DNA from: Oscillospiraceae bacterium
Lineage (GTDB): Bacteria > Bacillota > Clostridia > Oscillospirales > Ruminococcaceae
Direction of reading: 5' to 3'
Assembly (NCBI GenBank): GCA_021200775.1
Contig: JAJQGB010000002.1
Span: forward strand, 1 to 64,000
Length of the DNA: 64,000 nucleotides
Every line of letters begins with the position of its first letter. The first letter of the stretch is position 1. Under the pieces are notes generated by a model. The model did not search any database and had not been told where the DNA came from. It saw nothing but the letters and a program-made list of their open reading frames with translations. Of this stretch, positions 1,846-17,353 are shown piece after piece. Position numbers and translations under genes: made by a program.

Positions 1846-2193
1846 ATGCATGGGAGAAAAAATGGCGATAATAAGGACGAAACGACACCTTTAGGGAAGC
1901 TTGTACACGATTTTCATTGTACCACAGCAGATGAAATGTATTACAAGCCCTTAGCCAAAAGCATGAGACATTTCAAAGAGTCAGAAGGAGGTATCACTCA
2001 AATGTGCAAATTGATGGAAGATATGAGGATAGAGTATGGGAAAGAGGTAGCGAGAGATTCGGAAATCAAATCCGCAATTAAAACTGCAAGACGCTATGGC
2101 ATCGCAGAGCATTTGATTCTTTCCGACATCATGAAGCAATATAACCTTACCGAAAAAGAGGCGAAGGGATATATGCTTAAGATGAGTGCATAA
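1846..2193 (+). pseudogene. Truncated rpn-like gene, C-terminal part only (copy 2)
   Basis: A 115-codon reading frame nearly identical, over its last about 100 residues, to the C-terminus of the full 272-residue rpn gene at 62030-62848. Shared blocks include GKLVHDF, VARDSEI, KTARRYGIAE and ILSDIMKQYNLTEKEAKGYM. About 150 N-terminal residues carrying the nuclease core are gone. The promoter module ends a few bases before the first ATG, which points to one internal deletion between promoter and C-terminal half. ATG 1846 has no convincing ribosome site. The reading frame is otherwise open, and the internal start at 2002 is intact. Confidence 0.7.
2002..2193 (+). CDS. Probable internally initiated short Rpn product (copy 2)
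   Basis: AGAAGGAGGT (1983-1992), a near-perfect anti-16S match, stands nine bases before in-frame ATG-TGC at 2002. It would give a 63-residue protein with the conserved C-terminal tail. In this locus the nuclease part is deleted, so this may be the only translated product and could act as a solitary antitoxin-like remnant. Inferred from sequence only. Confidence 0.5.
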   Translation: MCKLMEDMRIEYGKEVARDSEIKSAIKTARRYGIAEHLILSDIMKQYNLTEKEAKGYMLKMSA

Positions 2194-2197
2194 TCTT

Positions 2198-2219
2198 CCG
2201 GAGGTATCACTCAAATGTG
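2198..2219 (+). repeat. 22-bp ribosome-site/ATG motif downstream of rpn copy 2
   Basis: CCGGAGGTATCACTCAAATG plus TG lies just after the stop codon. It is repeated after the stop of rpn copy 3 (on the minus strand around 62005-62026), and most of it also forms the internal start of copy 2 (1987-2006). Here it runs straight into a terminator; in copy 3 the ATG is followed at once by TGA. Confidence 0.75.
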
Positions 2220-2221
2220 CA

Positions 2222-2249
2222 AAGCCCGGCAACATTTCCGGGCTTTTTT
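2222..2249 (+). terminator. Intrinsic terminator after rpn copy 2
   Basis: AAGCCCGG pairs with CCGGGCTT and is followed by six T residues. Confidence 0.85.
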
Positions 2250-2408
2250 CCAAAAAAATTTTTTATTCTGCAATAATTCCGCCCCACTCTGTCACCTTTC
2301 CCAAAACAATTTCTCAACACTATCACAATTTTTGACTATCCGAACATCTCATTTGTCAAATCAGCTAAAATGGGTTCGTTTCAAGCAACTTTATTTTGGC
2401 ATAAGTTA

Positions 2409-2437
2409 TTGACAAGCGGGATGTTCTTTGATATAAT
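2409..2437 (+). promoter_or_regulatory. Consensus sigma-A promoter of the large ABC/DUF5696 operon
   Basis: TTGACA (2409-2414), a 17-base spacer and TATAAT (2432-2437), a perfect housekeeping promoter. No terminator was found before 16641, so all genes from 2731 to 16625 are probably transcribed from here. Confidence 0.88.
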
Positions 2438-2730
2438 AGGAAATGTTATAAGGTGATTTTGTGAAAATCACGGTATATTCTTCTCTCTGAAAACGGATTT
2501 CGGGTTTTGTCCGCCACGGGGAGACTTAATCAAGCAAATGCCTTTTTCTAAAGTTGCGGAGTTGCGACTGCCGCACTTTAACTCGCTGAAGTTTATGCTG
2601 AAGCGTATGCACGAAAAAATTGTGCAAAATTTCGGAAAAGGAATTTGCTTATAAGTGTTTGTAGAGGACGAAACAGCGATTTTGTGCAACATGCACAAAT
2701 ACCACAATTCGCAATTGCGGAGGAAACCGG
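2438..2730 (+). promoter_or_regulatory. Long structured 5' leader of the ABC/DUF5696 operon
   Basis: About 285 untranslated bases separate the promoter from the first gene. Visible hairpins are GTGATTTT/AAAATCAC near 2453-2470, AAAGT-GCGG/CCGC-ACTTT near 2551-2581, and TTGTGC/GCACAA near 2683-2699. A short frame begins at GTG 2461 but has no ribosome site. I do not recognise a known riboswitch, and there is no clear terminator in the leader. Its function is unknown. Confidence 0.5.
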
Positions 2731-3408
2731 ATGGAAACAATCATAGCAACACACGGTCTGAGCAGAGACTTTCAGATTGGTGACGGAAGTGTGGTTCACG
2801 CACTTCATGACATTAATATCACTGTAAACGAGGGCGGACTTACCATTTTAAAAGGTCGCTCCGGCTCCGGCAAAACGACCCTCATCAATCTTCTGGGAGC
2901 ATTGGACAGACCCACCGAGGGCGAAGTCTTCTTTGACGGAGTGGACATCACAAAGCTGTCTGACAGTAAAAGAGACGAGCTGAGGCGCTACAAGATGGCG
3001 TTCGTATTCCAGTCGGTGGCTCTGATGTCGTCGATGACGGCATACGAAAACGTCGACTTCGGACTCAGGCTTTCAAAGTTCCCGTTTGCACAGCGTGACG
3101 AGAGAGTTAAGAAGTGCCTTGAAGAGGTCGGTCTTGCAAAGAGAATGAATCACCGCCCGGGCGAGCTTTCCGGAGGCGAACAGCAGAGAGTCGCAATTGC
3201 AAGAGCTTTAGCACACGAGCCGAGAATAATCTTTGCCGACGAGCCGACAGCCGAGCTTGATACGGCGACAAGTCACCACGTTGTAGAGCTGTTCAAGAGG
3301 CTTGTAATCACAGAAAAGATGACAATAGTCATGACAACTCATGACCCGAGCCTGCTGGAGATTGCCGACAGGGTTTACACTTTGGAGGACGGTGAGATTA
3401 TTGACTGA
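2731..3408 (+). CDS. ABC transporter ATP-binding protein, LolD/MacB type
   Basis: A 225-residue ATPase of about the size of LolD. Walker A GRSGSGKTT is near residues 42-50, a Q-loop follows in FVFQS, the signature LSGGEQQR near 147, Walker B IIFADEPT near 165, and the switch His in TTHDP. Domain features (ALHDINI lead-in, TAELD D-loop) place it with the LolD/MacB/FtsE branch. That branch usually powers FtsX-like permeases for lipoprotein release, peptide efflux or mechanotransmission, not sugar uptake. First gene of the operon; ATG 2731 follows GCGGAGG. Its last eight bases overlap the next ATPase gene. No FtsX-like permease is in this window, so the partner is unclear. Confidence 0.88.
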   Translation: METIIATHGLSRDFQIGDGSVVHALHDINITVNEGGLTILKGRSGSGKTTLINLLGALDRPTEGEVFFDGVDITKLSDSKRDELRRYKMAFVFQSVALMSSMTAYENVDFGLRLSKFPFAQRDERVKKCLEEVGLAKRMNHRPGELSGGEQQRVAIARALAHEPRIIFADEPTAELDTATSHHVVELFKRLVITEKMTIVMTTHDPSLLEIADRVYTLEDGEIID

Positions 3409-4468
3409 GGAAGAGAAAACCACCGTTTTGGACGAAGAAAAGAAACCAAAAGAAAAGAAACAAAAAGAGCCCAAAGAGAAGAAATTATCAAAGAAGAAAC
3501 AGCGCATACTAGAGCACGAGCAGGAGATAACGGCTCCGACAACGGAGTACGCGATCGAGTGCGAGAACCTAGTCAAGATTTACAAGACCGAGCAGATTGA
3601 GGTCGTTGCACTTCAGGGACTTGACCTGAAGGTAAAACGTGGTGAACTGGTCGCCATTGTAGGAACCTCCGGTTCCGGTAAATCGACACTTCTGAATATG
3701 CTGGGAGGGCTTGACAAACCGAGCGCCGGGTCGCTCAATGTGAACGGGAGAAATCTTCTCAAATTCACCGAAGAGGACTACATGCTCTACAAGCGCAATA
3801 TGGTCGGGTTTGTCTGGCAGAATAACGCAAGAAACCTTGTTCCGTACTTGACGGCGGAGCAGAACGTCGAGCTTCCGATGCTCCTTCAGGGACAGAAGCA
3901 GAGGCGTGAGAGAGCCCTGGAACTACTTGATGCAGTCGGGCTGTCACACAGGATAAATTCCCGACTTGACCAGATGTCCGGAGGCGAACAGCAGAGAGTT
4001 GCGATTGCCATCTCGATGGCGAACAATCCGCAGATACTTCTTGCCGACGAACCGACAGGGTCGGTCGACACAAAAACCTCCGACCAGCTTTTACAGGTCT
4101 TCAAGGACCTGAACCGTACCCGGGGGATAACGATTGTAATCGTAACCCACGACATGCGGCTTGCAAAACAGATAGACAGAGTAATAGCAATAAGGGACGG
4201 CAGAACGTCCAGTGAAATAATAAAGAAAACGCACGCCGAAATCATGAGAGAGTCACAAGGTCTTGAAGAGACGGACGAGGAACTCACGAAATCGGTGACT
4301 GAGGGCGAACCCGACTTTGTTTCCGAAGAACTCGTGGTACTTGACCGCACCGGAAGACTTCAGCTTCCGAAGGAGTACCTCGAAGAGCTCGGAATGAAAG
4401 GCGGAGACCGAGTCAAGGCTGACCTTGACAAGGAAGCCGAGCGAATCTATATTCGCAAGGCAGAATAA
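3401..4468 (+). CDS. LolD-type ABC ATPase with C-terminal AbrB/SpoVT-like domain
   Basis: A 355-residue protein in three parts. Residues 1-45 are a very lysine/glutamate-rich tail. Residues about 55-285 form an ABC ATPase (Walker A GTSGSGKST near 88, signature MSGGEQQR near 192, Walker B LLADEPTG near 213, switch His in VTHDM). After an acidic linker, residues about 308-355 match the swapped-hairpin AbrB/SpoVT/MazE fold (VVLDRTGRLQLPKEYLEELG followed by GDRV). TTG 3401 is chosen because it overlaps the preceding stop in the usual coupled way with GGAGG upstream; GTG 3392 is possible. The AbrB-like domain normally binds DNA; on a transporter ATPase it may instead dimerise or regulate it, in the position MalK uses for its regulatory domain. 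Confidence 0.82.
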   Translation: MTEEEKTTVLDEEKKPKEKKQKEPKEKKLSKKKQRILEHEQEITAPTTEYAIECENLVKIYKTEQIEVVALQGLDLKVKRGELVAIVGTSGSGKSTLLNMLGGLDKPSAGSLNVNGRNLLKFTEEDYMLYKRNMVGFVWQNNARNLVPYLTAEQNVELPMLLQGQKQRRERALELLDAVGLSHRINSRLDQMSGGEQQRVAIAISMANNPQILLADEPTGSVDTKTSDQLLQVFKDLNRTRGITIVIVTHDMRLAKQIDRVIAIRDGRTSSEIIKKTHAEIMRESQGLEETDEELTKSVTEGEPDFVSEELVVLDRTGRLQLPKEYLEELGMKGGDRVKADLDKEAERIYIRKAE

Positions 4469-4559
4469 ACTTTTTATAACCTGTAAGGAAGAATAGAAGC
4501 ATCCGACCGAATCTTATCGGGAGCGGTTGGAGCAATTTAGAAGAAAGGTGGATACCACA

Positions 4560-7523
4560 GTGAAAAACAAACTGTTCGGGGACAATAAGTCCGGGAATAG
4601 ACTGTTCATGCGTATACTATCGCTTGTGCTTGCACTTTGCATGATGGTGCCGTTTGCAGGCACGGTTTATGCGGATAGCGACACTTCCGAAGAGGAAGAC
4701 ACGTCTACATCCACGGCTTCGGTCGCCGAAACATCCGCACAAGCCATCGACGATGCCAGTAGAGCCAATAGCTACTCAACGTTCTACGACAACCACGCTG
4801 ATGACCCGAGACCGGACACTGAAATCGTCATTGACGGCGTTGATTACGACTCCGTTACCGACGAATCAGAGGCTTATATCGACACAATCGACGGAGTAGA
4901 TGCACTTGTTCTTTCCGCAGAGGAAGCCGAAGTCTCCTACTCATTCAGCATTTCGGAAGCCGGAATCTACAACGTGGAGATTATGTACTACGCTCTTGCC
5001 AGCACCGCAAACGATATTGAAATCGCCTTCTATATCGACGGCGAGCTTCAGTATTCAACCGCCGAGAGAATTCTTTTAAGCAAGCTCTGGGCTATCTCCG
5101 AGGATTCCTATGAATACGACGAAGATGGCAACCGTAGCTTCAGAACCGATGCTACCGGCAACCAGGTAAGACCTACTCTGGAAGAATCACTTTCCTGGCA
5201 GACAACTACATTTGAGGACACCGACGGTCTTTACAACGATGCTCTCGAATTCTACCTTACAGAAGGTGAGCACACCCTCACAATCGTGTCCGACAAGGCA
5301 AGATTCGCAATCTCCTATTTAAAGTTCTTTAACGAGGAAGAACCCGCTTCTCTTACCGTGGTTGACACCGTTACAACTGATGAGTCGGTTGCTTCTTCTA
5401 CAACCGGAGTTTACATTCTTCTCGAAGGCGAAGATTGCACCTATACTTCTGACGTAACACTTTATCCTACTCAGGACCGTTCTACATACCTCACTTCTCC
5501 CGCCGCTTCTTCAAAGCAGGTTTACAACACCATCGGCTCGGAGACGTGGAAGGATTCCGGAATGAAAGTCACATGGACGTTCACGATGGAAGAAGCCGGC
5601 TGGGTAAAGATTGGTATCCGCGGTATTCAGGATGAAATGCGAGGACTCTTCTCCAACCGTACTATTTATATAGACGGCGAGATTCCTTGCGAAGAGGCTG
5701 AGGCTGTCAAGTTCTACTATTCGAACAGCTGGAGCGTCACCACTCCTACCGATGATGACGGCGACACCCTTTACTTCTACCTTGAAGCAGGCGAGCACAC
5801 CTTAACACTCGAAGCTGTCCCTGGCGACATCGGCGAAATCATGCGTGAGCTCGACGATTTGGTTTACTACCTCAACAGCTACTACAGACAGATACTCATG
5901 ATTACCGGTTCCGACCCGGATGAGTACACCGACTACATGGTTCACAAGCAGATTCCTGATTTGCTTACCGACTTCCAGACCTACGCTGACGAGCTCAGAG
6001 CTCTGAAGACTAAGATTGAGGATATCGCAGGAACCTCCGGTACTGAAGCAGTTTCTTTGGAAACAATGGCACAGCTTCTTGACAAGATGATCGACCGTCC
6101 GGACGACATCCCTGCCAAGCTCGGTCAGTTCAAGGACGACGTCACCGCACTCTCTCAGTGGATGACCGACTACCGCAGTCAGTACCTCGAAGTTGACTTT
6201 ATCGAAATCACTTCCGCAGATGTTGAGTTCTCTTCCACAAAGGAAAGCTTCTTCAAGTCACTTTCCTTCAGCTGGGACCAGTTCATCGCTTCCTTCTTTG
6301 AAGACTATAACAACCTTTCAACCGGCGGCGAGGATGCCCTTGAAGTGTGGGTTTCTTTAGGTCGTGACCAGGCTCAGATAGTCAAGGAACTCATTGACTC
6401 CTACTTCGTTGAGGATACCGGCATTGCAGTAAATGTAAGCCTTGTACAGGGCGGTATCATTGAAGCGACACTTGCCGGAAAGGGACCTGACGTCGCACTC
6501 TTCGTTGGCGGCGACCTGCCTTTACAGCTCGCAATCCGTGACTGCCTGGTAGATGTATCGCAGTTTGACGACTATGAAGAGATAATCTCGAGATTCTCCG
6601 ACAACATCATGACGCTGTATACATACAACGGAGAAGTCTTCGGACTCCCGATTTCCCAGACATTCTCGATGATGTTCTATAGAACCGACGTACTTGAATC
6701 GTTCGGATTCGACGAGCCGCCGGAGACATGGGACGAACTCATCGAAATGCTCCCGACCATTCAGCGTAGCTACATGGGCGTCGGCTTCAACTTCGATGCA
6801 TACGCTACATTCATGGTTCAGAATGGTATGGACTACTACAACGAGAACAAGACCGCAACAACATTTGACAATATCACGTCTGTTGAGTGCTTCGAGATGT
6901 GGACTGAGTTCTACACCCTCTACTCATTCGAGCAGACATTCGACCAGTTCTCAAGATTCCGTACCGGTGAGTACCCGATAATCATCACCGGCTACACCTT
7001 CTACAACCAGGTTTACACCGCCGCACCTGAAATCAGAGGTCTTTGGGACTTCGCTCTGGTACCCGGTACTGTTCAGGAGGACGGAACCATCAGCCACGCC
7101 ACAACTTCTACCTCTACCGGAGCTATCATCTTCTCGAAGCTTTCTCAGGAGCAGAGGGAAGACGCTTGGGAGCTCATCAAGTGGTTCACCGAATCCGATA
7201 TCCAGGCTCAGTACGGACGTTCAATCGAAGCTTTGTTAGGTCCGATGGGACGATTCGATACCGCAAACCAGGAAGCTCTTACACAGCTCTCATGGTCCAA
7301 GACCGAGTATTCACTCATCTTGGAGCAGATGAACTACACTACTGAGATGAGACTTATCCCGGCAACATACATTGTTACACGTAACATAACAAATGCATTC
7401 AGAGAAGTCGTCAACAACTATGCTAACCCGAGAGACACGTTGCTCTGGTACAACAGAGACATCAACGATGAAATCACGAGAAAGTACGAGGAGTTGGGAA
7501 TCGACATCTCAACACTAGAATAG
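4560..7523 (+). CDS. Giant secreted ABC solute-binding protein with CBM-like N-terminal domains
   Basis: 987 residues, about twice the usual length. A signal peptide (hydrophobic LSLVLALCMMVPFAG, cleavage near VYA-DS) lacks a lipobox Cys, so this is not a lipoprotein. Two beta-rich domains (residues about 80-258 and 283-423) each end in a GEHTL strand and contain FYIDGE/IYIDGE, resembling CBM6/35-type sugar-binding modules. A helical linker (about 424-560) leads to a family 1 extracellular solute-binding domain from about 595 to the end (VAL..GGD, PISQTFSMMFYRTD, EPPETWDEL, ALVPG). GTG 4560 with AAAGGTGG eight bases upstream is preferred over TTG 4527. It is followed by two sugar-type permeases, so it probably captures an oligo- or polysaccharide for them. 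Membrane retention is unexplained. Confidence 0.85.
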   Translation: MKNKLFGDNKSGNRLFMRILSLVLALCMMVPFAGTVYADSDTSEEEDTSTSTASVAETSAQAIDDASRANSYSTFYDNHADDPRPDTEIVIDGVDYDSVTDESEAYIDTIDGVDALVLSAEEAEVSYSFSISEAGIYNVEIMYYALASTANDIEIAFYIDGELQYSTAERILLSKLWAISEDSYEYDEDGNRSFRTDATGNQVRPTLEESLSWQTTTFEDTDGLYNDALEFYLTEGEHTLTIVSDKARFAISYLKFFNEEEPASLTVVDTVTTDESVASSTTGVYILLEGEDCTYTSDVTLYPTQDRSTYLTSPAASSKQVYNTIGSETWKDSGMKVTWTFTMEEAGWVKIGIRGIQDEMRGLFSNRTIYIDGEIPCEEAEAVKFYYSNSWSVTTPTDDDGDTLYFYLEAGEHTLTLEAVPGDIGEIMRELDDLVYYLNSYYRQILMITGSDPDEYTDYMVHKQIPDLLTDFQTYADELRALKTKIEDIAGTSGTEAVSLETMAQLLDKMIDRPDDIPAKLGQFKDDVTALSQWMTDYRSQYLEVDFIEITSADVEFSSTKESFFKSLSFSWDQFIASFFEDYNNLSTGGEDALEVWVSLGRDQAQIVKELIDSYFVEDTGIAVNVSLVQGGIIEATLAGKGPDVALFVGGDLPLQLAIRDCLVDVSQFDDYEEIISRFSDNIMTLYTYNGEVFGLPISQTFSMMFYRTDVLESFGFDEPPETWDELIEMLPTIQRSYMGVGFNFDAYATFMVQNGMDYYNENKTATTFDNITSVECFEMWTEFYTLYSFEQTFDQFSRFRTGEYPIIITGYTFYNQVYTAAPEIRGLWDFALVPGTVQEDGTISHATTSTSTGAIIFSKLSQEQREDAWELIKWFTESDIQAQYGRSIEALLGPMGRFDTANQEALTQLSWSKTEYSLILEQMNYTTEMRLIPATYIVTRNITNAFREVVNNYANPRDTLLWYNRDINDEITRKYEELGIDISTLE

Positions 7524-7540
7524 AGGAGGGAGCATGAGTA

Positions 7541-8494
7541 ATGGCAAAGGCTAAAAAAGAGCAAACAGCCGTCAAGCCGATAAACACAGAGAGCAAAGCC
7601 GCCTATACCTGGCATCTCATCAAGCAGAATAAAACTGTATACCTGATGATGCTTCCGTTCTTTGTACTGTTTATCATCTTTACACTGGTTCCTGTTATCA
7701 TGACGCTTCCTTTGGGTCTTACGAACTTCAACCTCGTACAGGCGCCAAGGTACATCGGACTTCAGAACTTCTACTCGCTGTTTGTAAACGATGATGTATT
7801 CATGACAGCCATCAAGAATACACTCATATTCGCAGTTTTCACAGGTCCGTTCTCCTACGTATTGAGCTTCCTTCTTGCGTGGCTCATCAACGAGATGAAT
7901 CCATTTTTCAAGGTATTCTTCACATTCGTATTCTACGCTCCGTCAATGACGCCGTCGGCATACGTAATCTGGCAGCTCATCTTCTCCGGTGACTCCTATG
8001 GATACCTGAACTCGGTTCTTATGGATTTGGGAATCATAAACAACGCCATACAATGGTTGACGGACACGAGCTATATGATGGGGGTTGTAATCATCGTCCA
8101 GCTCTGGTCGTCAATGGGTGCCGGATTCCTTGCACTCCGTGCAGGCTTCCAGAACATCGATAACTCGCTTTATGAAGCGGGCGCAATCGAAGGCATCCAA
8201 AACAGATTCCAGGAGCTATTCACCATCACAATCCCTGCAATGGGACCGTCACTTCTGTTCGCAGCCGTCCTGGCAATTTCCGGAGCTTTCACCTGCGGTA
8301 CCGTTGGTTCAACGCTCTGCGGACTTCCCTCGACCGACTACGCAGTACACACGGTTATGAACCATGCTCAGGACTATGGTACAATTCGTTACGAAATGGG
8401 CTACTCGAGTGCAATTTGTATGGTGCTCTTCGCGGTAATGCTTATAACGAACACTATCATACGTAGGATTCTGAGCAGATACACAGATGATTAA
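7541..8494 (+). CDS. Sugar ABC transporter permease, MalF/UgpA type (pair 1)
   Basis: A 317-residue, six-helix binding-protein-dependent permease. The cytoplasmic EAA loop EAGAIEGIQNRFQELFTITI begins near residue 212 and docks the ATPase in this family. The N-terminal cytosolic tail is about 35 residues and begins MAKAKKEQ. ATG 7541 follows GAGGAGGGA. It lies 17 bases after the binding-protein gene and is followed by its MalG-type partner, the usual F-G heterodimer arrangement. The substrate is inferred to be a carbohydrate from the family only. Confidence 0.92.
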   Translation: MAKAKKEQTAVKPINTESKAAYTWHLIKQNKTVYLMMLPFFVLFIIFTLVPVIMTLPLGLTNFNLVQAPRYIGLQNFYSLFVNDDVFMTAIKNTLIFAVFTGPFSYVLSFLLAWLINEMNPFFKVFFTFVFYAPSMTPSAYVIWQLIFSGDSYGYLNSVLMDLGIINNAIQWLTDTSYMMGVVIIVQLWSSMGAGFLALRAGFQNIDNSLYEAGAIEGIQNRFQELFTITIPAMGPSLLFAAVLAISGAFTCGTVGSTLCGLPSTDYAVHTVMNHAQDYGTIRYEMGYSSAICMVLFAVMLITNTIIRRILSRYTDD

Positions 8495-8509
8495 GGGGGT
8501 GGAAAAGTT

Positions 8510-9475
8510 ATGGCATCAGATATAAGAGTAGATCAGGAAAAGCTTGCAAAGAAGCAAGCTAAAGAAGTAGAAAAGCTGAGAAAAAGACAGGCTAAGATAA
8601 ATATCGAAAAGGTCCACGTCAAGAAATCAAAGGGCAAGCACATAAACGGCTCTTTGGGCGGAGACATAATGATATTCATCCTTCTCGCCCTCCTCGGAAT
8701 CTTCATGATTTTCCCGCTTTACTACTCAATCATTCAGTCTTTGAAGCCGATCAGTGAACTTTTCGTCTTCCCTCCGAGACTGTACGTAATAAATCCGACC
8801 ACTGAAAACTTCTCAAACCTCTTCAAGGTTGCCGGTAACCTCTGGGTTCCGTTCTCGAGATACATATTCAACTCGGTATTCATCACAGTAGTAATTTCAA
8901 TCATCCACGTTTTCGTAGTCTGCTGTGCGGCGTATGCACTTTCCAAGTGCCGCTTCCCGGGATATGGTGCTCTCAACTCGATCATTGTAAATGCACTTCT
9001 CTTCTCCTCGACAGCGACATGGATCATGCAGTACGTAGTCATTGCGGCAATGGGACTCATCAATACCTACTGGGCTTTGATTCTCCCGAATATCGCAACA
9101 TCAATGGGTCTTTACCTCATGCGTCAGAGTATGTCAACCATCAACGACTCGATTATCGACGCCGCCAAGGTTGACGGTGCGGGACACTTCCGCATCTGCT
9201 GGCAGGTAATCGTCCCGAACCAGAAGCCTGCAATTGCAACCCTTATCATTTACGTTTTCCAGGGTGCATGGAACATCCAGGGCGGTTCACTCGTTTACGA
9301 AGAGCAGTTGAAGACTCTTCCGACCATCATGAACCAGTTGGCGGCTTCCGGTATTGCACGTCAGGGCATCATCTACGCTTCGGCTGTAGTACTTATGCTC
9401 CCTCCGCTTATCATCTTCCTTGTAGCACAGAGCAACGTTATGGAAACCATGGCAAGCTCAGGTATGAAGGACTAA
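8510..9475 (+). CDS. Carbohydrate ABC transporter permease, MalG/UgpE type (pair 1)
   Basis: A 321-residue permease with six predicted helices. The EAA loop DAAKVDGAGHFRICWQVIVP lies near residues 217-236. The first 50 residues are a highly charged, lysine-rich cytosolic tail (KKQAKEVEKLRKRQAK), longer than usual for MalG proteins. It starts 15 bases after the MalF-type gene behind AAGGGGGTGG. It forms the second half of the first permease heterodimer. Confidence 0.92.
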   Translation: MASDIRVDQEKLAKKQAKEVEKLRKRQAKINIEKVHVKKSKGKHINGSLGGDIMIFILLALLGIFMIFPLYYSIIQSLKPISELFVFPPRLYVINPTTENFSNLFKVAGNLWVPFSRYIFNSVFITVVISIIHVFVVCCAAYALSKCRFPGYGALNSIIVNALLFSSTATWIMQYVVIAAMGLINTYWALILPNIATSMGLYLMRQSMSTINDSIIDAAKVDGAGHFRICWQVIVPNQKPAIATLIIYVFQGAWNIQGGSLVYEEQLKTLPTIMNQLAASGIARQGIIYASAVVLMLPPLIIFLVAQSNVMETMASSGMKD

Positions 9476-9531
9476 CCCTTATGGGCACAGTCAAGACTGT
9501 ACTATATAGAAAAGGAGACAGGTGATAAGCA

Positions 9532-11208
9532 GTGACGAACTTTAATATCAAAAAAGTGCTGTGTATAATGCTCGCTGTGATGCTGACAGTCACGATGGCT
9601 GTAACCGCATTCGCCGACGACCCGTACACATCCTACAACTATAATGCATGGAAAGAGGCAGTTCCCTCCCAGAACGGTTATCAGGTCACAGACACGATAA
9701 CCGGTGCGGAAATCGGACTCGACCAGCTTTCCGACCCCGACAGCGAGTTCTTCATCAGTGAAGATGAACCGGCTACTCTGTCGGATGCCAAGGACTTCTT
9801 CCTTTCCGAAAATGAGGAATGGTATATAGTTGACACCGGCAACAACCGTATAATCAAGACAGACCTTGAATTCAACCTTCTTGCTTGCTTCAAGACCTTC
9901 ACGGGAAGTTCGATTACTACTGAGACTACCCTTGAAGACGGAACGGTTGAAACCACAGTGGCAAACACACTGAAGAGCCCATATGGCATCTACGTCGACG
10001 AAGACGACATCATGTACATCGCCGACAGAGATAACCAGAGAGTTATCAAGTGCAATCAGGATTGCGAAATCATCACCGAGTACACAAGACCTGATTCAGA
10101 GCTTTACGATTCAGTGTCATTCTACTGTACGAAGGTGCTCGTCGATGCGGCAAAGAACGTTTACGTTATCTGCCCCGCAGTAAACAAGGGTGCTATCATG
10201 TACTCCGCATCCGGAACCTTCTTAGGCTTCTTCGGTGCGAACAAGGTTGAGGTTACCGCACAGGTAGTCATCAACAAGATGTGGAGAAAGATAGCGACCG
10301 AATCCCAGTCGGCAACTCTTACAAAGGCTACTCCTGTTGAGTATGCAAACTTCGATATCGACGACCAGGGCTTTATCTACACCGTAACCGAAGCGGCTAA
10401 CACCACAACGGACGCTGTAAAGAAGCTGAATCCGGCAGGCTCGAACATTATCTCCCGTACCGAGAACGGTGCTGAGATTGTATTCGGTGACCAGACGTCG
10501 GTAACCTACTCGGGCACGACCTATTCGACCCGACTGACCGACATCTCAATCGGCGATAACGGAATCGTCAACATCCTCGACTATACTTCGGGACGTATCT
10601 TCCAGTATGACCGTGAGTTCAACCTCCTCTTCATCTTCGGATGCGACCAGGAAGACCAGAACGGCGGATTTGACAACCCGAACGCAATCGAGTCCTATGG
10701 CGACAAGATTTACGTTCTCGACGGAAGAAACAACGACATAACAGTCTTCTCTGAGACGCTCTTCGGCTCCTATGTTCACGAAGCCGCTGAGATGTACAAC
10801 GAAGGTTTGTACGAAGATTCTCTCGAACTCTGGCAGGACATCCTCAAGCGCGACGGTAACTACAACATGGCTTACGTCGCAATCGGCAAGGCACTCCTCA
10901 ATCAGGATGAGTATGAGGAAGCTATGAAGTACCTCAAAGCAGGTTACGATGACGAAGACTACGACAAGGCGTTCGAGTATTATCGTAAAGACCTCATGAG
11001 AAACAACTTCACAGCGGCGATTATAGTAATTGCTGTTCTGATTATAGCTTACCTCGTTGTAAAAGCCCTTCAGAAGAGAGGAAAGATTCCCGATCATCTC
11101 TGGCGCAGACTCTTCAGACTTATCGGGAAGGGTATCAAGACACTTGCAAACAAAATTGTGGGAGTCTTTACAAAGAACAAGAAGGGAGGAGCAGTAAATG
11201 GTCTATGA
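9532..11208 (+). CDS. Secreted, membrane-anchored NHL-repeat/TPR protein
   Basis: 558 residues. An N-terminal signal peptide (VLCIMLAVMLTVTMAVTAFA) is followed by a beta-propeller-like region with NHL-type repeats. Diagnostic pieces are WYIVDTGNNRIIK, SPYGIYVDEDDIMYIADRDNQRV and YGDKIYVLDGRNNDI. A pair of TPR-like helical repeats (about residues 415-485, AAEMYNEGLYEDSLELW) leads to one transmembrane helix near 493-515 and a basic cytosolic tail (KKGGAVNGL end). The propeller would therefore face outside and the tail inside. Start is GTG 9532 behind AAAGGAGAC. Its stop overlaps the next gene by 11 bases. NHL propellers usually bind proteins, glycans or RNA; here a surface scaffold for the transporter is likely. 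Confidence 0.8.
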   Translation: MTNFNIKKVLCIMLAVMLTVTMAVTAFADDPYTSYNYNAWKEAVPSQNGYQVTDTITGAEIGLDQLSDPDSEFFISEDEPATLSDAKDFFLSENEEWYIVDTGNNRIIKTDLEFNLLACFKTFTGSSITTETTLEDGTVETTVANTLKSPYGIYVDEDDIMYIADRDNQRVIKCNQDCEIITEYTRPDSELYDSVSFYCTKVLVDAAKNVYVICPAVNKGAIMYSASGTFLGFFGANKVEVTAQVVINKMWRKIATESQSATLTKATPVEYANFDIDDQGFIYTVTEAANTTTDAVKKLNPAGSNIISRTENGAEIVFGDQTSVTYSGTTYSTRLTDISIGDNGIVNILDYTSGRIFQYDREFNLLFIFGCDQEDQNGGFDNPNAIESYGDKIYVLDGRNNDITVFSETLFGSYVHEAAEMYNEGLYEDSLELWQDILKRDGNYNMAYVAIGKALLNQDEYEEAMKYLKAGYDDEDYDKAFEYYRKDLMRNNFTAAIIVIAVLIIAYLVVKALQKRGKIPDHLWRRLFRLIGKGIKTLANKIVGVFTKNKKGGAVNGL

Positions 11209-11833
11209 TATGACGCCGATTCAGTGGCTGAAGCACGTCATCTTCCACCCGCTGGAAGGCTATGAGGATATGAGATGGAAGAAGCAAGGTTCAATGTCCA
11301 TCGCAATAGTTATCGTGTTCCTTCTTCTCGTGGCTCAGGTAGTCAACCAACGTATGGGCGGATTTGCATTCAACATGGCGGCATATTCGGACGTATTCAA
11401 CATCGTTCCGATTATCACCCAGAGTGTTATCATCTACATCGCCTGGGTCGTATCCAACTGGTCGTTCTGTACGCTTCTTGACGGTGAAGGCAACATGCGC
11501 AGAGTAGCAATTTATTCGGCGTATGCACTCGTTCCCTACATCGTCTGCATGGTTATTTCGACTATTATGACCTACGCCCTCACTCTGGACGAGTCAATCT
11601 GGTCAAGCGCAATATACTACGTCGGAATCGGATGGACTGCGATTATGATAGTAACCGGCATGAAAGCGTGCCACCAGTATTCCTACACAAAAACATTCGT
11701 ATGCATAGCTCTGACAGTTGTCGGCATGATTCTTATCCTTTGCATGTTCGTACTGCTCCTGTCACTCTTCCAGCAGGTATACGTCTTCTTCTACACCATC
11801 TATACTGAGATAATGTATAGAGTGAGAAGCTAG
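11198..11833 (+). CDS. Yip1-family polytopic membrane protein
   Basis: 211 residues with about five hydrophobic segments. A short amphipathic N-terminus (PIQWLKHVIFHPLEGYEDM) is typical of bacterial Yip1-domain proteins. Charged loops separate helices beginning MSIAIVIVFLLLV, IIYIAWVVSNW, AYALVPYIVCMV and FVCIALTVVGM. ATG 11198 follows GGGAGGAGCAG and overlaps the NHL gene, so translation is probably coupled. The function of bacterial Yip1 proteins is unknown. Co-occurrence with NHL, DUF5696 and sugar-permease genes suggests a membrane accessory of this transporter. Confidence 0.78.
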   Translation: MVYDMTPIQWLKHVIFHPLEGYEDMRWKKQGSMSIAIVIVFLLLVAQVVNQRMGGFAFNMAAYSDVFNIVPIITQSVIIYIAWVVSNWSFCTLLDGEGNMRRVAIYSAYALVPYIVCMVISTIMTYALTLDESIWSSAIYYVGIGWTAIMIVTGMKACHQYSYTKTFVCIALTVVGMILILCMFVLLLSLFQQVYVFFYTIYTEIMYRVRS

Positions 11834-11860
11834 TGGGCAGAAAGGTGAGTGTAAACTGAT

Positions 11861-14365
11861 ATGAAGAAAAAATTTCTCAGATTAATCGCCGGACTGCTTG
11901 TAATCACCATGCTCATGTCGATGACCGTCTTCACGGCGGTCGCCGAAGAGGAAGCGGAAGAAGCTACGGCTGTAAGCGATGATGCAGAAGTCGCAGAGGC
12001 TACAGACGCCGAAGCCGTCGAAGCAGACGTCACCGATGAAGTCGTGGCTGAAGCCGTAGACGAAGAAGCGGACGAAGTGGTCGAAGAAGACGAGGACGAG
12101 GCGGTCGAAGACGAAGATGAGGACGCCGACTCCGACGAAGACGAAGAAGAGGAAGAAGAGACCGTAGAATATCTCACCGATGAAGATGAGATTGCACGGT
12201 GCGAAGTAGTCGCTGAGAACGACGAAGCTATAATGTATCTCGACAGAGAGTACGAGCGAATCGGCGTCTACGTCAAGGCTTCCGGCAAGGTTTGGTGGTC
12301 GAACTGCGTTAATGCACTTCTGGACGACGCTACCACGAAGTCTTCGCTTCAGGAAAACCGTCTTTCCAACATCGCCGTCAGATACGGCAACGCAACAGAC
12401 CTTATCATTTCCGCATACCTTTATTCTTACAGACAGTCAACCGACAAGGAAGACACCGAATTTGAGCTTGTAGACAACGGCGTCAAGGTTACCTACAACT
12501 TCTCCAGTGCCAAGGCAACCGTTCCGGTCTACTACATTCTCGAAGATACAAATCTTTACTGCTACGTAATCACCTCCGAGATAAACGAGAAGGCTGGATA
12601 CGTTGAAGGCGAGGATGCTCAGGAATCCGATTCCGACGTTCTCATCCTTACCGAGCTTGCAATGAACCCTTACTTCGGTGCAGCTGACAGCGAGGCTGAA
12701 GGCTATATGCTCGTAGTTGACGGCTCAGGTGCTATCATCAACCTCAACAACGGCAAGGGCAACTACTCCAACTATTCATCCACCATTTACGGAAGAGACG
12801 TAGCGGACGTCAAGGACAATCAGCCTGATGAAGTCGAGCAGGTTACAATGCCTGTTATGGCTATGGTTCAGGGAAGCGACGGTCTGGTAATGGTCGCTAC
12901 TGAAGGCGATACGTTCGCATCTGTCAACGCCGCAGTCGCCTATAATTCGGACGATAACTGCGGATATAACTACTGCTACTTCTCATTCACCCTCCGTTCA
13001 ACCGATACCTACAGCATGTCCGGTGACTCCTCTTCAATCATCATGTTTGAAAAGGGCGACGGAACAATCGCTGTTGAGAAGCTCGGCGTAAGATACTACT
13101 GGGTAACTTCCGAAGAGGAAGAAGTAACAGTCACCGAGATTGCGGATGTCTATAGAGACTACCTCATCGAAGAGGAAGGCTTAACCCAAAAGGTCGATTC
13201 CGACTATGCTCCTCTGTTCGTAGAGTTCTACGGCGGAACCTTAAAGTCGAAGTCAATCCTTGGTATTCCCGTAAACCTCAAGACCGCTTTCACAACATTT
13301 GACCAGGCGGCTGAGATTCTCGAAGAACTCGTTGAGCTCGGAGTTGACCAGTTCGTCGTCAACTATAACGACTGGACCACCGACTCGATGACAGGAAAGA
13401 TTGACACGGCAAAGAGTGCGGCAAGCGTCCTCGGAGGCAAGAGTGATTTTGAAGATTTAATCGAGTATTGCGAGAGCATCAATGCACAGTTCTACGCATC
13501 GGTTAGCGATTACACCTTCTCCTCGAACGGCAACGGCTTCTGGACACTCTTCAACACGGCTTACCGTGTATCGAAGTCCTATGCAAGACCTTATGAGTAC
13601 AACATAGCCTATGGCACACCGAACTCCGGCGTTGCTTCGGCACTTCTCTCACCGAGGTCGATCAGTAAGCTTTCAACGAAGGTTGCAAATAACCTTGAAA
13701 AGTATGACCTTCCCGGCGCAGGACTTGGCTCTTATGCTAACACACTCTGGGGCGACTACTCCACAAAGAATCGCACCAACCGTGAGGTTACCGCACAGTA
13801 CATCATCGACTACTATAAGGAAGTAGCAGGAGTCGTTGACAGCGTAATCGCAGACGCTCCGAACGCTTACCTCTACAGCTACGTAGATGTAATCCAGAAC
13901 CTGACGCTCCAGTCGAGCCAGTTCAAGATTTTCGATGAGGACGTACCGTTCGTACAGATTGTACTCCACGGCTACATTCCTTACTCCACCGAAGCAATCA
14001 ACAGCTCAGCGGATTCAATGGAACTCTTCTTAAAGGCAATTGCTTCCGGCTCTTACGTCAAGTACACCTTCATCTATGAAGAGACAACCGAGATTGAGGA
14101 CACCGATTACATCAATCTCTACTATGCAAACTACGATGGCTGGCTTGAACAGGCTGCCGCTGAATACGAGCTTGCAAGTGAAATTCTCTCATCCGTTTCC
14201 GATTCCGTAATCACCGGATATGAGACCGATGGCTCAGTAATCACGACGACTTACGAAAATGGTGTTGTGACTACAGTTAATCTCTCAACCGGAGAAATCA
14301 CGGCAAACGGAAAGACCTATAACTATTCAGATTATGTTGACGAAGGAGGGATATTGAATGGCTGA
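11861..14365 (+). CDS. Secreted DUF5696-type protein with a long acidic linker
   Basis: 834 residues. A signal peptide (LLVITMLMSMTVFTAVA) is followed by about 80 residues made almost only of Glu, Asp, Ala and Val, then a large folded region. The C-terminal half (VEFYGGTLKSKSILGIPV, AEILEELVELGVDQFVVNYNDW, YASVSDYTF, YLYSYVDVI) resembles DUF5696, which by its alternating pattern looks like a TIM-barrel glycoside-hydrolase-like fold. I cannot assign catalytic residues. There is no lipobox or C-terminal anchor. It overlaps the next permease gene by eight bases. Likely role: extracellular processing or binding of the transported glycan. The DUF name is from memory of the family. Confidence 0.72.
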   Translation: MKKKFLRLIAGLLVITMLMSMTVFTAVAEEEAEEATAVSDDAEVAEATDAEAVEADVTDEVVAEAVDEEADEVVEEDEDEAVEDEDEDADSDEDEEEEEETVEYLTDEDEIARCEVVAENDEAIMYLDREYERIGVYVKASGKVWWSNCVNALLDDATTKSSLQENRLSNIAVRYGNATDLIISAYLYSYRQSTDKEDTEFELVDNGVKVTYNFSSAKATVPVYYILEDTNLYCYVITSEINEKAGYVEGEDAQESDSDVLILTELAMNPYFGAADSEAEGYMLVVDGSGAIINLNNGKGNYSNYSSTIYGRDVADVKDNQPDEVEQVTMPVMAMVQGSDGLVMVATEGDTFASVNAAVAYNSDDNCGYNYCYFSFTLRSTDTYSMSGDSSSIIMFEKGDGTIAVEKLGVRYYWVTSEEEEVTVTEIADVYRDYLIEEEGLTQKVDSDYAPLFVEFYGGTLKSKSILGIPVNLKTAFTTFDQAAEILEELVELGVDQFVVNYNDWTTDSMTGKIDTAKSAASVLGGKSDFEDLIEYCESINAQFYASVSDYTFSSNGNGFWTLFNTAYRVSKSYARPYEYNIAYGTPNSGVASALLSPRSISKLSTKVANNLEKYDLPGAGLGSYANTLWGDYSTKNRTNREVTAQYIIDYYKEVAGVVDSVIADAPNAYLYSYVDVIQNLTLQSSQFKIFDEDVPFVQIVLHGYIPYSTEAINSSADSMELFLKAIASGSYVKYTFIYEETTEIEDTDYINLYYANYDGWLEQAAAEYELASEILSSVSDSVITGYETDGSVITTTYENGVVTTVNLSTGEITANGKTYNYSDYVDEGGILNG

Positions 14366-15404
14366 TACAGTAGTTAATGAAGCCGCTGAGGTCGCAGAGG
14401 TTCCTGCAGAGGAAACCGTAAACGAGACTGTTGAAGAGACTGTCGTCGAAACTAAAGAAAAGGCTTCAAAGAAATCCGCCAAGCCTCCGAAAGAGAAGAA
14501 AGTCAAGGGTATGAAAATCCCTTACGAGAGGCGTAAAGCGCTGTATGGCTATGGGTTCCTTGCCATCTGGATTTTGGGAACCATCTGGCTCTTCTTAAAG
14601 CCACTCATCACATCGCTTTGGTACTCTTTCAACACGACCGAGGTAACGGTCGGCGTCATGAAGACCACATTCGTGGGAATCCAGAACTACATTGATGCGT
14701 TCACAATCGACACCGATTACACGACTGCGCTCATTAATGTTCTTGGTGAAACACTTTGGTCAACGCCGGTTATCCTGATATTCTCGCTGTTCGTAGCGGT
14801 TATTCTTAACCAGAAGTTCCACGGAAGAACCTTCGCCCGTGCGGTATTCTTCCTCCCGGTTATCATTGCAACCGGACCGGTTATGAGTATCATCAACGGC
14901 GATATGGACACCTCCGGATATTCCGGCGGTTCCGAAGCCTTCTCGACAATGTTCGAGACGGATATGGCGGGTGAACTTCTGACGTTCTTGGGAGTTTACA
15001 ACATAAGTGACACGGTCACTGAAATGGTAACCTTGATTACATCAGATGTATTCAATCTCGTCTGGAACTCAGGTATTCAGATTATCATCTTCCTCTCAGC
15101 CTTGCAGAATATTCCTGTTTCCGCAAGAGAAGCGGCATCCATCGAAGGTGCTACCGCATGGGAGTTCTTCTGGAAGATTACTCTTCCTTACATCAGCCCG
15201 ATGATCGTTACAAACCTTGTTTATACGATTGTTGACTCGTTCGTTGCTACTGATAACGAGGTCATGACGCTGGTTCTTTCCGAAGCGTCTGACTGGAACC
15301 ACGGCTACTCTGCGGCACTCGCATGGATTTACTTCCTGATTGTAATTGTAGTCCTGGGAATTGTACTCGGTATCATCAACAAGCACATCTACTACGAAGT
15401 ATAA
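14358..15404 (+). CDS. Sugar ABC transporter permease, MalF/UgpA type (pair 2)
   Basis: 348 residues. Residues 1-55 are a cytosolic tail rich in Glu, Val and Lys (EETVNETVEETVVETKEK then KKSAKPPKEKKVKG). Six predicted helices follow, with the EAA loop EAASIEGATAWEFFWKITLP near 257-276. ATG 14358 lies behind AAGGAGGG inside the end of the DUF5696 gene. With the next gene it makes a second F-G permease heterodimer in the same operon, which has only one solute-binding protein. Confidence 0.92.
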   Translation: MADTVVNEAAEVAEVPAEETVNETVEETVVETKEKASKKSAKPPKEKKVKGMKIPYERRKALYGYGFLAIWILGTIWLFLKPLITSLWYSFNTTEVTVGVMKTTFVGIQNYIDAFTIDTDYTTALINVLGETLWSTPVILIFSLFVAVILNQKFHGRTFARAVFFLPVIIATGPVMSIINGDMDTSGYSGGSEAFSTMFETDMAGELLTFLGVYNISDTVTEMVTLITSDVFNLVWNSGIQIIIFLSALQNIPVSAREAASIEGATAWEFFWKITLPYISPMIVTNLVYTIVDSFVATDNEVMTLVLSEASDWNHGYSAALAWIYFLIVIVVLGIVLGIINKHIYYEV

Positions 15405-15419
15405 AGGGGGGGAATCACA

Positions 15420-16625
15420 GTGGCTAAAGAAAAGAAAGAAAAGGTCGTAAAAGAAAAGGTCGTCAAGGAGAAGGCTGTCAAGGAGAAGAAGCCTCGCCGT
15501 CAGAAGGAAATGAGTACCGAAAAAGCCGAAAAGCTCTTTGAAAAGGAACGCAGACAGCACCTCAGAGAGAAAGAAAAGGCTTATAAGGAAGCCAAGAAGA
15601 ACGGCACCCTCGACGAACGTCAGCTCGACCCGAAGTATCTGTGGTATCTCCGCCGTAAAAGGATTCTCGGATGGGTTTGGCCGATTGCCAGATTCCTCAT
15701 CCTCTTCGGACTCTGCTTCGTAATCCTCTATCCGCTCATCTACATGCTCTCGACCGCTTTCAGACCGAATGCTCAGATGAACGACCCGTCAGTAGTCTGG
15801 ATTCCCAAGTCGTTCACGCTTTCAAACCTCCAGGATGTCTGGGACGTTATGGACTTCGGTGCAACGCTTCTGAACACCATCAGACTTAACCTTGTCTGCT
15901 CGCTCCTCTCGGTTGTAAGCTGTTGTCTTGCCGGTTACGGCTTCGCAAGATTCAACTTCAAGGGAAAGAGCCTCATGTTCGGAATCGTAATCATGCAGAT
16001 TATCGTTCCTGCACAGATTACCGTTATACCTCTGTACCTCCAGTGGGCATACTTCAAGTGCTTCGGACTTGTGGAGGTTGCGGCGGGCGCCGGTGCGACG
16101 ACGTTTATGGGAATTGCCATAAACACGGCATCAGACGGTGCGCACTATATCTCACTCATCGACCACCAGATTGTAATGTACGTCCCGGCGATATTCGCAA
16201 ACGGTATTCGTTCCGGACTGTTCATCTACATATTCAGACAGTTCTTCAGAGGACTCCCGATGGAGCTCGAAGATGCCGCATACCTCGACGGTTGCGGACC
16301 GTTCAAGACCTTCATCCGAGTAATGATTCCGAATGCTTCTTCGGCATTCCTGACAGTATTCCTCTTCTCGATAGTCTGGTACTGGAACGACTACTACGTT
16401 TCGTCCACATTCTTCATCAACAACCACACGGTCGCTTTGCAGCTACAAAAGCTATCGGCAACGCTCGATGCCCAGCTGTTCAACAACGCACAGGTTGGTA
16501 CACGACGAAAGATTGTTTGGTTGGAAGCCGGTTGTCTGTTGTCAATTTCACCTATTCTGATAATGTACATCTTCCTACAGAAGTACTTTACCGAAGGTCT
16601 TGCAAGATCCGGCTTGGTTGGATAA
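15420..16625 (+). CDS. Carbohydrate ABC transporter permease, MalG type, with long basic tail (pair 2)
   Basis: 401 residues, about 120 longer than typical MalG proteins. The first about 80 residues are cytosolic and extremely charged, starting with tandem EKVVKEK repeats and then KKPRRQKE and KLFEKERRQHLREKEK. The six-helix permease follows, with the EAA loop EDAAYLDGCGPFKTFIRVMI near 284-303. An extra loop before it (about 220-250) is rich in Gly/Ala. Start GTG 15420 follows AAGGGGGGG. Last gene of the operon; a terminator lies 15 bases later. Confidence 0.92.
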   Translation: MAKEKKEKVVKEKVVKEKAVKEKKPRRQKEMSTEKAEKLFEKERRQHLREKEKAYKEAKKNGTLDERQLDPKYLWYLRRKRILGWVWPIARFLILFGLCFVILYPLIYMLSTAFRPNAQMNDPSVVWIPKSFTLSNLQDVWDVMDFGATLLNTIRLNLVCSLLSVVSCCLAGYGFARFNFKGKSLMFGIVIMQIIVPAQITVIPLYLQWAYFKCFGLVEVAAGAGATTFMGIAINTASDGAHYISLIDHQIVMYVPAIFANGIRSGLFIYIFRQFFRGLPMELEDAAYLDGCGPFKTFIRVMIPNASSAFLTVFLFSIVWYWNDYYVSSTFFINNHTVALQLQKLSATLDAQLFNNAQVGTRRKIVWLEAGCLLSISPILIMYIFLQKYFTEGLARSGLVG

Positions 16626-16640
16626 TTCCAAAGCAATTAA

Positions 16641-16677
16641 AATTCCCTCATGGTTTTTCCGTGAGGGAATTTTTTTC
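16641..16677 (+). terminator. Terminator of the ABC/DUF5696 operon
   Basis: AATTCCCTCA pairs with TGAGGGAATT across a short loop and is followed by seven T residues. Confidence 0.9.
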
Positions 16678-16716
16678 GCCGCCTTCGGCGCCGACTCGCC
16701 TCCCGTTGGTCGGCGC

Positions 16717-16796
16717 ACCTCTCAGTCAGAGTTGCGAAGCAACTCTCTTAGTTCGGCGAAGCTGAACTAATGCGCTCGCCCTTGACAGGGGAGCCA
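16717..16796. repeat. Degenerate palindromic intergenic element (type A-like)
   Basis: It begins CCTCTCAGTCAG and ends GGGGAGCC, as in the type A elements at 27470 and 40467. It contains two small palindromes, AGTTGCGAAGCAACT (16729-16743) and TAGTTCGGCGAAGCTGAACTA-like (16749-16769). It lies directly after the operon terminator. Confidence 0.5.
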
Positions 16797-16808
16797 TAAG
16801 TGCATCAT

Positions 16809-16837
16809 GTATAATTACAGATTTATAACAAATACTA
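16809..16837 (+). promoter_or_regulatory. Possible sigma-G-type promoter of spoVAC
   Basis: GTATA (16809-16813), 17 bases, then AATACTA (16831-16837) approximate the forespore sigma-G pattern (GNATR, then CATNNTA). This is a weak match, offered because spoVA genes are sigma-G dependent in relatives. Confidence 0.25.
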
Positions 16838-16859
16838 TCCTAAAAAAGGAGTTTTGTGA

Positions 16860-17303
16860 ATGAACCTATCCAATAAACAATATTCGGAGCTTGCGAAGGA
16901 CGCCGAAGAGCCGTCGAAAGCCTGGTTTAACGTACCGAAGGCGTTTTTGATTGGCGGATTCATCTGCCTGGTAGGGCAGGGAATAGGCGATTTGTACCGC
17001 TATTTCGGAATGTCGGAGGAGGAGACTGCGGCGTTCACGTCAATTACGCTCGTGCTAATTTCGGTAATCCTCACAGGCTTCGGGCTTTATCCGAAGGTCG
17101 CCAAGCACGGCGGAGCCGGAACTCTGGTCCCGATAACAGGATTTGCGAACGCAGTCGCCTCGCCCGCAATCGAGTTCAAAACGGAAGGCTGGGTAACAGG
17201 CGTCGGCACAAAAATCTTCACCATCGCAGGACCCGTCATCCTCTATGGAACAGCCGCAGGAGTCGTGTATGGGGTGATTTACTTCATCTTATCGAGATTA
17301 TAG
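16860..17303 (+). CDS. spoVAC: Stage V sporulation protein AC
   Basis: 147 residues, full length for SpoVAC, with four or five membrane segments. It carries the family motifs FLIGGFICLVGQ, GLYPKVAKHGGAGTLVPITG, FANAV and EGWVTGVGTKIFTIAGPVI. SpoVA proteins form the spore-membrane channel that loads and releases dipicolinic acid. In most spore formers spoVAC is followed by spoVAD and spoVAE(b). Here it stands alone, between a terminator and a convergent accessory block. ATG 16860 follows AAAAAAGGAG. Confidence 0.93.
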   Translation: MNLSNKQYSELAKDAEEPSKAWFNVPKAFLIGGFICLVGQGIGDLYRYFGMSEEETAAFTSITLVLISVILTGFGLYPKVAKHGGAGTLVPITGFANAVASPAIEFKTEGWVTGVGTKIFTIAGPVILYGTAAGVVYGVIYFILSRL

Positions 17304-17310
17304 CGCAAAA

Positions 17311-17341
17311 AAGCCGGGTTCTTGGGAACTCGGCTTTGTGT
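17311..17341. terminator. Terminator between spoVAC and the convergent HipA-like gene
   Basis: AAGCCGGGTTC pairs with GAACTCGGCTT (one G-T pair), with a T-run on the plus side and A-run on the other, so it may serve both convergent genes. Confidence 0.85.
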
Positions 17342-17353
17342 TTTTTTGAAGTA

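Follow-up and report, generated by a model that had tools for sequence, protein, structure and literature searches.

This locus raises the question of which membrane machine is driven by two LolD/MacB-type ATPases that head an operon otherwise made of carbohydrate importer genes. The operon lies in the window, namely the whole stretch of 64,000 nucleotides analyzed here (contig C5, positions 1-64000, of a 2.06-Mb genome in 17 contigs), and the nearest relatives with names are metagenome genomes of Oscillospiraceae and Ruminococcus. Its ten genes, all on the + strand and spanning 2731-16625 (Table 1), encode the ATP-binding cassette (ABC) ATPases ATP1 and ATP2, a solute-binding protein (SBP), two MalF/MalG-type permease pairs (PA1/PB1 and PA2/PB2), an NHL/TPR protein, a Yip1 protein, and a DUF5696 protein; an earlier note on this DNA, made from its letters, had listed the same ten genes, and our family assignments agree with it. 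That note left two readings standing: in one the ATPase pair energizes the importer, and in the other the operon houses an importer together with a second membrane machine. The observed gene content, gene order, co-occurrence, and phylogeny argue for the latter: the operon very probably combines an ATPase-less importer, driven by an MsmX-type ATPase encoded elsewhere, with the two nucleotide-binding subunits of a separate type VII ABC machine.

Family searches assigned to the genes downstream of ATP2 one SBP, four BPD_transp_1-type permeases, an NHL protein with a weak TPR match, Yip1, and DUF5696 (E 5e-147), with PB1 scoring 25.0 bits for BPD_transp_1, under the Pfam cut-off of 26.4, as well as matching UgpE at 2.5e-26. 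EAA loops are present in all four permeases. The eight core genes, from SBP to PB2, keep a constant order in 66 of 80 loci of other species; judged from these sequences, this arrangement is not due to chance, and this eight-gene importer cassette occurs widely across Bacillota. The ATPase pair stands upstream of the SBP, as in the window, in only 20 of the 80 loci (counted by tblastn and whole-genome searches). In the other 60 the pair was not found; for 13 of them, the available sequence ahead of the first core gene is shorter than 1.5 kb. Scanning these 60 loci in six frames for the ABC signature gave one real match, in L104, ∼5 kb past the cassette, and two chance strings; the remaining 59 loci showed no genuine signature. 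The 20 pair-bearing loci are labelled Oscillospiraceae, Ruminococcus, Ruminiclostridium, and unnamed Clostridia, with one Bacteroides sp. The length of the SBP is similar across the 70 open reading frames (ORFs) measured (median 981 aa, range 833-1089); its first ∼600 residues (4527-6400 of the window) gave no Pfam match, and two jelly-roll, CBM-like stretches were seen there by eye.

The best NCBIfam matches of ATP1 and ATP2 are LolD, DevA, FtsE, and MacB, all under the curated cut-offs. Their Walker A, signature, Walker B, and H-loop motifs are intact, and these are invariant across 12 ATP1 and 13 ATP2 rows. ATP2 most likely starts at the TTG at 3401, overlapping the end of ATP1, and its AbrB/MazE-like tail was seen in nearly all ATP2 rows inspected, the L050 copy being one in which it was not seen.

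The statement in the earlier note that FtsX-like permeases are absent is correct for the operon but not for the genome, which has 26 FtsX-domain matches, including a permease with two FtsX stretches on contig C16 (locus L138). There, all on the minus strand, lie genes for BioY (11599-12192), a lipoprotein (9991-11589), an adaptor (8622-9731), and the permease (5777-8581); Pfam gave matches to BioY, GH26 with CBM35, an HlyD-type adaptor (HlyD_3, HlyD_D23), and two FtsX stretches in this block, whose adaptor-permease part yielded no ABC ATPase. The permease has 934 residues and matches PF02687 at E 1.7e-21 in its two stretches. Its predicted model (predicted local distance difference test score, pLDDT, 81.8) has ten long helices and two extracellular domains, which fits MacB-like halves (a helix, an extracellular domain, and three helices), and structural matches to the model were YbbP, BceB, MacB, and LolC/E. 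The adaptor and permease that a second membrane machine would need are thus located on C16. In eight of the 20 pair-bearing loci (L036-L043), a block related to these C16 genes, comprising the lipoprotein, the adaptor, and a ∼940-residue permease, follows the importer in every case, with BioY in two of them, and no ATPase was seen within it. Elsewhere, an adaptor and an FtsX gene lie just upstream of the cassette (L194), or the full four-gene set, with both ATPases, lies near it (L193).

Co-occurrence was examined in 49 genomes with a DUF5696 locus, among which G428 has a partial cassette only, and in a draw of 398 genomes from the phylum that includes the window's own genome (G000). Profile searches found the ∼940-residue double-FtsX permease in 35 of the 49: each of the 21 pair-bearing genomes has exactly one copy, and half of the other 28 (14) have the permease as well. 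The ATP2 profile matched these same 35 genomes and gave no match in the 14 without the permease. Moreover, 34 of these genomes have as many copies of one gene as of the other (4/4 in G421, 3/3 in G435, and 2/2 in G430 and G431), the remaining genome, G424, having four FtsX genes and three ATP2 genes. In the phylum draw, the permease occurs in 12 genomes and ATP2 in 13, with 12/12 permease genomes within the 13 (Fisher p 5e-22, genomes counted without correction for kinship). In the thirteenth (G288; L210, C3), a permease adjoins ATP2 but is broken into two ORFs, by either a sequencing error or decay of the gene. By gene association, an FtsX-like permease encoded outside the operon is therefore most likely the partner of these ATPases, the kind of finding that the earlier note had named as refuting its importer-motor reading, and the earlier proposal that the pair energizes the importer is not upheld, given this tracking (35/35 with, 0/14 without) and the orphan MsmX-type ATPase of the same genome described below.

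Gene order points the same way. In cassette genomes without the pair at the importer locus, the order ATP1-adaptor-FtsX-ATP2 was found in 15 of 20 fetched permease regions and adaptor-FtsX-ATP1-ATP2 in one, with the adaptor adjoining FtsX in 19 of the 20; by coordinates, ATP2 lies on the same strand and within 1 kb of the permease in 22 of 24 copies. For 10 of the 12 permease genomes in the phylum draw, ATP2 comes less than 1 kb after the permease, G222 having ATP1 in between, and only G000 and G337, both of one family, carry ATP2 in the importer operon instead. Ten regions of this draw were fetched outside that family; seven read ATP1-adaptor-FtsX-ATP2 and one adaptor-FtsX-ATP1-ATP2, and in the DNA read no ATP1 was found at L210 or L216, nor an adaptor at L216. 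The LolD-type genes are thus not always in the importer operon, a question that the earlier note had raised, and outside the window family they occur mostly in four-gene FtsX operons. Furthermore, in a tree of 42 ATPases, ATP1 forms one group and ATP2 another (each with support 100/99); both groups mix window-type with FtsX-operon rows, and both exclude 11 other LolD-like ATPases. Window-type ATP1 is nested among the FtsX-operon rows (98/98), next to L184, in whose operon the two ATPase genes adjoin each other, as they do in the window. Because the window-type ATPases nest in the FtsX-operon family and gene order agrees, the four-gene operon is probably the older state, and the adaptor-FtsX-ATP1-ATP2 order of L184 and G222 would likely represent the step before the split.

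The earlier observation that no MalK-type ATPase is present stands for the operon, in which a family search found none, but not for the genome, which encodes three OB_MalK ATPases; such ATPases were found in 48 of the 49 cassette genomes. Those on C6 and C2 sit with their own permeases and SBP, and the third, on C7 (L124:6802-7947), is an orphan with no such transporter permease among its neighbors, i.e., an msmK-like ATPase elsewhere in the genome, of the kind the earlier note had considered. Apart from those that partner the C2 and C6 ATPases, PB1 and PB2 are the only MalG-type permeases of the genome (two weaker matches are MalF-type), and they alone lack an adjacent MalK. Because one orphan ATPase faces one ATPase-less importer, the motor of the importer is, by elimination, probably the C7 ATPase. 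In Bacillus subtilis, the orphan MsmX is shared by ATPase-less importers, and mutagenesis has linked four of its residues (D77, R104, E110, and K154, numbered from the Walker A residue K43) to multitask docking (PMC7658222). R104 is missing in 12/12 ATP1 rows, two of which match D77, and D77 is missing in 13/13 ATP2 rows, two of which match R104. In some relatives, an orphan msmX lies on the importer contig, ∼5 kb (G414, L130) or ∼8 kb (G401, L132) upstream of ATP1, with unrelated genes between.

We therefore propose that two machines share this operon. The genes from SBP to PB2 would encode a type I (CUT1-like) carbohydrate importer that has no ATPase of its own and comprises two permease pairs together with the NHL, Yip1, and GH129-like DUF5696 proteins; the orphan MsmX/MalK-type ATPase on C7 would power it as MsmX does in B. 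subtilis. ATP1 and ATP2 would be the two nucleotide-binding subunits in a type VII machine of the MacB/LolCDE/YbbAP class of ABC systems, whose membrane parts would be the C16 proteins, namely the lipoprotein-like HlyD/MacA-type adaptor and the ten-helix permease of two FtsX halves. This two-halved single-chain permease would accommodate a copy each of ATP1 and ATP2, whose ATP-driven closure would move the extracellular domains of the permease and the adaptor; by analogy with MacB, LolCDE, and YbbAP, the machine would act mechanically on something at the outer face of the membrane. Elsewhere in Bacillota, the four genes usually form one operon, whereas in the window lineage the ATPase genes head the importer operon instead, so both machines are probably expressed together.

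Several observations weigh against this proposal. In the 21 genomes with the split arrangement, ATP2 is beside the permease in none, and the pair has been kept at the head of the importer operon across DUF5696 identities from 89 down to 33% (best segments), a lasting position that suggests selection for some link with the importer. Among the 24 FtsX copies of the other cassette genomes, G424:C3 and G423 (with ATP2 on another contig) depart from the usual proximity. With respect to the motor, no OB_MalK ATPase was found in one cassette genome (G434, a 1.6-Mb metagenome genome), and the C7 ATPase keeps D77 and R104 but has glutamine in place of both E110 and K154. Finally, pairing by elimination would not be unique within the window's own genome, as two other FtsX genes (C2:30096 and C2:175325) also lack an adjacent ATPase. 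These two look similar to genes of arrays on C15, where L208 and L205 hold four and two double-FtsX permease genes, respectively, with one small ATPase gene each.

Among the rival explanations, the one that fares best assigns the pair to the FtsX machine yet takes its place in the importer operon as a chance rearrangement, with only the promoter in common. It draws support from the FtsX operon being found in genomes without full-length DUF5696 (G016, G064, G222, G392, and G288), in two of which (G016 and G288) it was seen by eye beside flagellar genes. We consider it unlikely, however, because the arrangement is conserved within the family (in G337 too) and in 20 loci, because the adaptor and FtsX genes directly follow the importer in L036-L043 and directly precede the cassette in L194, and because full-length DUF5696 is commoner in permease genomes (8/12, versus 29/386 of the others; Fisher p ∼1e-6, with no kinship correction). 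The lasting place of the pair beside the importer, the neighboring adaptor and permease genes, and this DUF5696 association suggest that the type VII machine shares regulation or a substrate with the importer. A stronger form of that link, which we regard as distinctly unlikely, would make the importer and the double-FtsX machine one envelope system acting on one glycan, in which the type VII part mechanically moves or clears glycan, enzyme, or lipid at the outer face and the NHL, Yip1, and GH129-like proteins couple it to a two-channel importer; if true, the operon would have fused two systems whose link stays loose in other Bacillota.

The heterodimer proposal, according to which ATP1 and ATP2 drive the four importer permeases and have replaced MsmX in this lineage, has in its favor the strict co-location of the pair with the importer (the 20 loci and the window), as well as the orphan MsmX of six pair genomes aligned, where one or two of the four docking residues are changed. 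Nevertheless, two of these residues are changed as well in L135, from a genome without the pair; of the 49 cassette genomes, the 14 without ATP2 are also those without the FtsX permease; and each of the 21 pair genomes has a single FtsX permease from this family along with one or more OB_MalK ATPases. The docking residue R104 is missing from the ATP1 rows and D77 from the ATP2 rows, and the EAA loops of the importer look much the same whether or not the pair is there, showing no clear switch, which is weak evidence in the same direction; taken together, we judge this proposal very improbable. Least likely of all is a double role of the pair, confined to the window lineage, in which it serves the importer as well as the double-FtsX permease; this would account for both the FtsX tie and the place in the importer operon but needs one pair of nucleotide-binding subunits to dock on two unrelated membrane folds, for which we know of no precedent, and is unneeded with MsmX on hand.

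Returning to the proposed ATPase-less importer, the predicted model of its DUF5696 protein (mean pLDDT 73.9) has a GH129-like fold. Its identity with the GH129/GH101 hydrolases (NagBb and ZgGH129) is only 12-14%, and the GH129 profile aligned to part of the DUF5696 domain only, with the catalytic residues not mappable. DUF5696 is constant while neighboring hydrolases vary, with single examples of GH26, GH32, GH35, GH38, and GH53. The window's own genome has a second, divergent DUF5696-like stretch (L127; G000:C4:32000-47000), which also has a Pfam match to GH101.

The features of the operon and its flanks are listed in Table 1. The predicted promoter is a candidate by its consensus match and is the sole sigma-70 site with 12/12 consensus positions, coinciding with the point at which the earlier note began the feature; the number of promoter-like sites (17, versus a shuffled mean of 15.3) is near chance. 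An inverted repeat that starts 15 bases past its -10 box is possibly a repressor site, and the leader ahead of ATP1 is ∼290 bases long. Downstream of the operon lies a lone gene of the SpoVAC/SpoVAEB family (16860-17303, + strand; PF03862, E 9e-43), and beyond the terminator-like stem a HipA-like gene is next, on the opposite strand; terminator-like sites total 14, against a shuffled mean of 13.0, again near the chance number. A search of Rfam at gathering scores gave no match within 2100-17400.

Table 1. Coordinates of the operon genes and flanking features in the window.
Feature	Coordinates	Strand	Description	Basis
Predicted promoter	2409..2437	+	Sigma-70 type, TTGACA-17-TATAAT, TG before -10; 12/12 consensus positions	
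Inverted repeat	2453..2471	+	Perfect 8-bp repeat GTGATTTT-GTG-AAAATCAC; candidate operator	Read from sequence
ATP1	2731..3408	+	LolD/MacB-type ABC ATPase; putative nucleotide-binding subunit of double-FtsX machine	Family searches, gene order, tree
ATP2	3401..4468	+	LolD/MacB-type ABC ATPase with AbrB/MazE-like C-terminal tail; putative second nucleotide-binding subunit of double-FtsX machine	Family searches, alignment, tree, profile search
AbrB/MazE-like tail of ATP2	4340..4459	+	Pfam match below cut-off, 17.5 vs 24.7 bits	
SBP	4527..7523	+	998 aa; solute-binding domain at residues 618-896	Family search
PA1	7541..8494	+	MalF/UgpA-type permease	Family search, EAA loop
PB1	8510..9475	+	MalG/UgpE-type permease	Family search, EAA loop
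NHL	9532..11208	+	NHL-repeat protein; C-terminal hydrophobic helix, weak TPR match	
Yip1	11198..11833	+	Yip1-domain membrane protein	Family search
DUF5696	11861..14365	+	Domain at 12458-14335; predicted GH129-like fold	Family search, structure model
PA2	14358..15404	+	MalF/UgpA-type permease	Family search, EAA loop
PB2	15420..16625	+	MalG/GlcU-type permease	Family search, EAA loop
Terminator-like stem and T-run	17310..17337	+	12 pairs, 6 GC; 3' of spoVAC-like gene	

Comparison with known systems places both machines as variants of established kinds. Escherichia coli YbbAP-TesA is likewise a type VII ABC system with a YbbP-like permease, and YbbAP contains two copies of one ATPase (PMC12646458); the window machine differs in combining ATPase genes of two kinds, one of which encodes an AbrB-like tail, with an HlyD-type adaptor. 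The Gram-positive MacAB-like YknWXYZ system of Bacillus is alike in combining an HlyD/MacA-type adaptor, a MacB-type permease, and a separate ATPase, with YknW being a Yip1 protein and the permease YknZ being of half size and paired with a single ATPase kind (PMC4887032, PMC5985334). Here, a double-length permease with two ATPase kinds takes the place of a half-size homodimer, and Yip1 belongs to the importer cassette, not to the FtsX machine. The idea that Yip1 serves the FtsX machine in the manner of YknW was considered and rejected, as the Yip1 gene stays in the cassette where the FtsX family is absent (L054/G419, L056/G420). The importer, in turn, resembles the ATPase-less CUT1 importers of Firmicutes that depend on MsmX/MsmK, in having an SBP, MalF/MalG-type permeases, and an orphan MalK-type ATPase elsewhere (PMC7658222), but differs from them in its two permease pairs, ∼1000-residue SBP, and fixed NHL, Yip1, and DUF5696 genes. 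With the GH129/GH101 hydrolases, DUF5696 shares its predicted fold at the low identity given above. A literature search, in which subscription papers lay mostly outside the reach, found no description of DUF5696, and neither the eight-gene cassette nor the four-gene two-ATPase machine was found described, as judged from titles and the starts of abstracts. We accordingly regard as apparently new (i) the eight-gene importer cassette and (ii) an adaptor-bearing, YbbP-like type VII machine with two ATPases.

In summary, the apparent exception that this operon presented, namely MacB-type ATPases powering a sugar importer, is removed, and the case cautions that ABC subunits sharing an operon may belong to different machines. 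In single examples, the cassette adjoins genes for the breakdown of mannan, fructan, or galactan. The type VII machine, with two ATPases on one two-halved permease, is a natural case for the study of asymmetric ATPase pairs in mechanotransmission.

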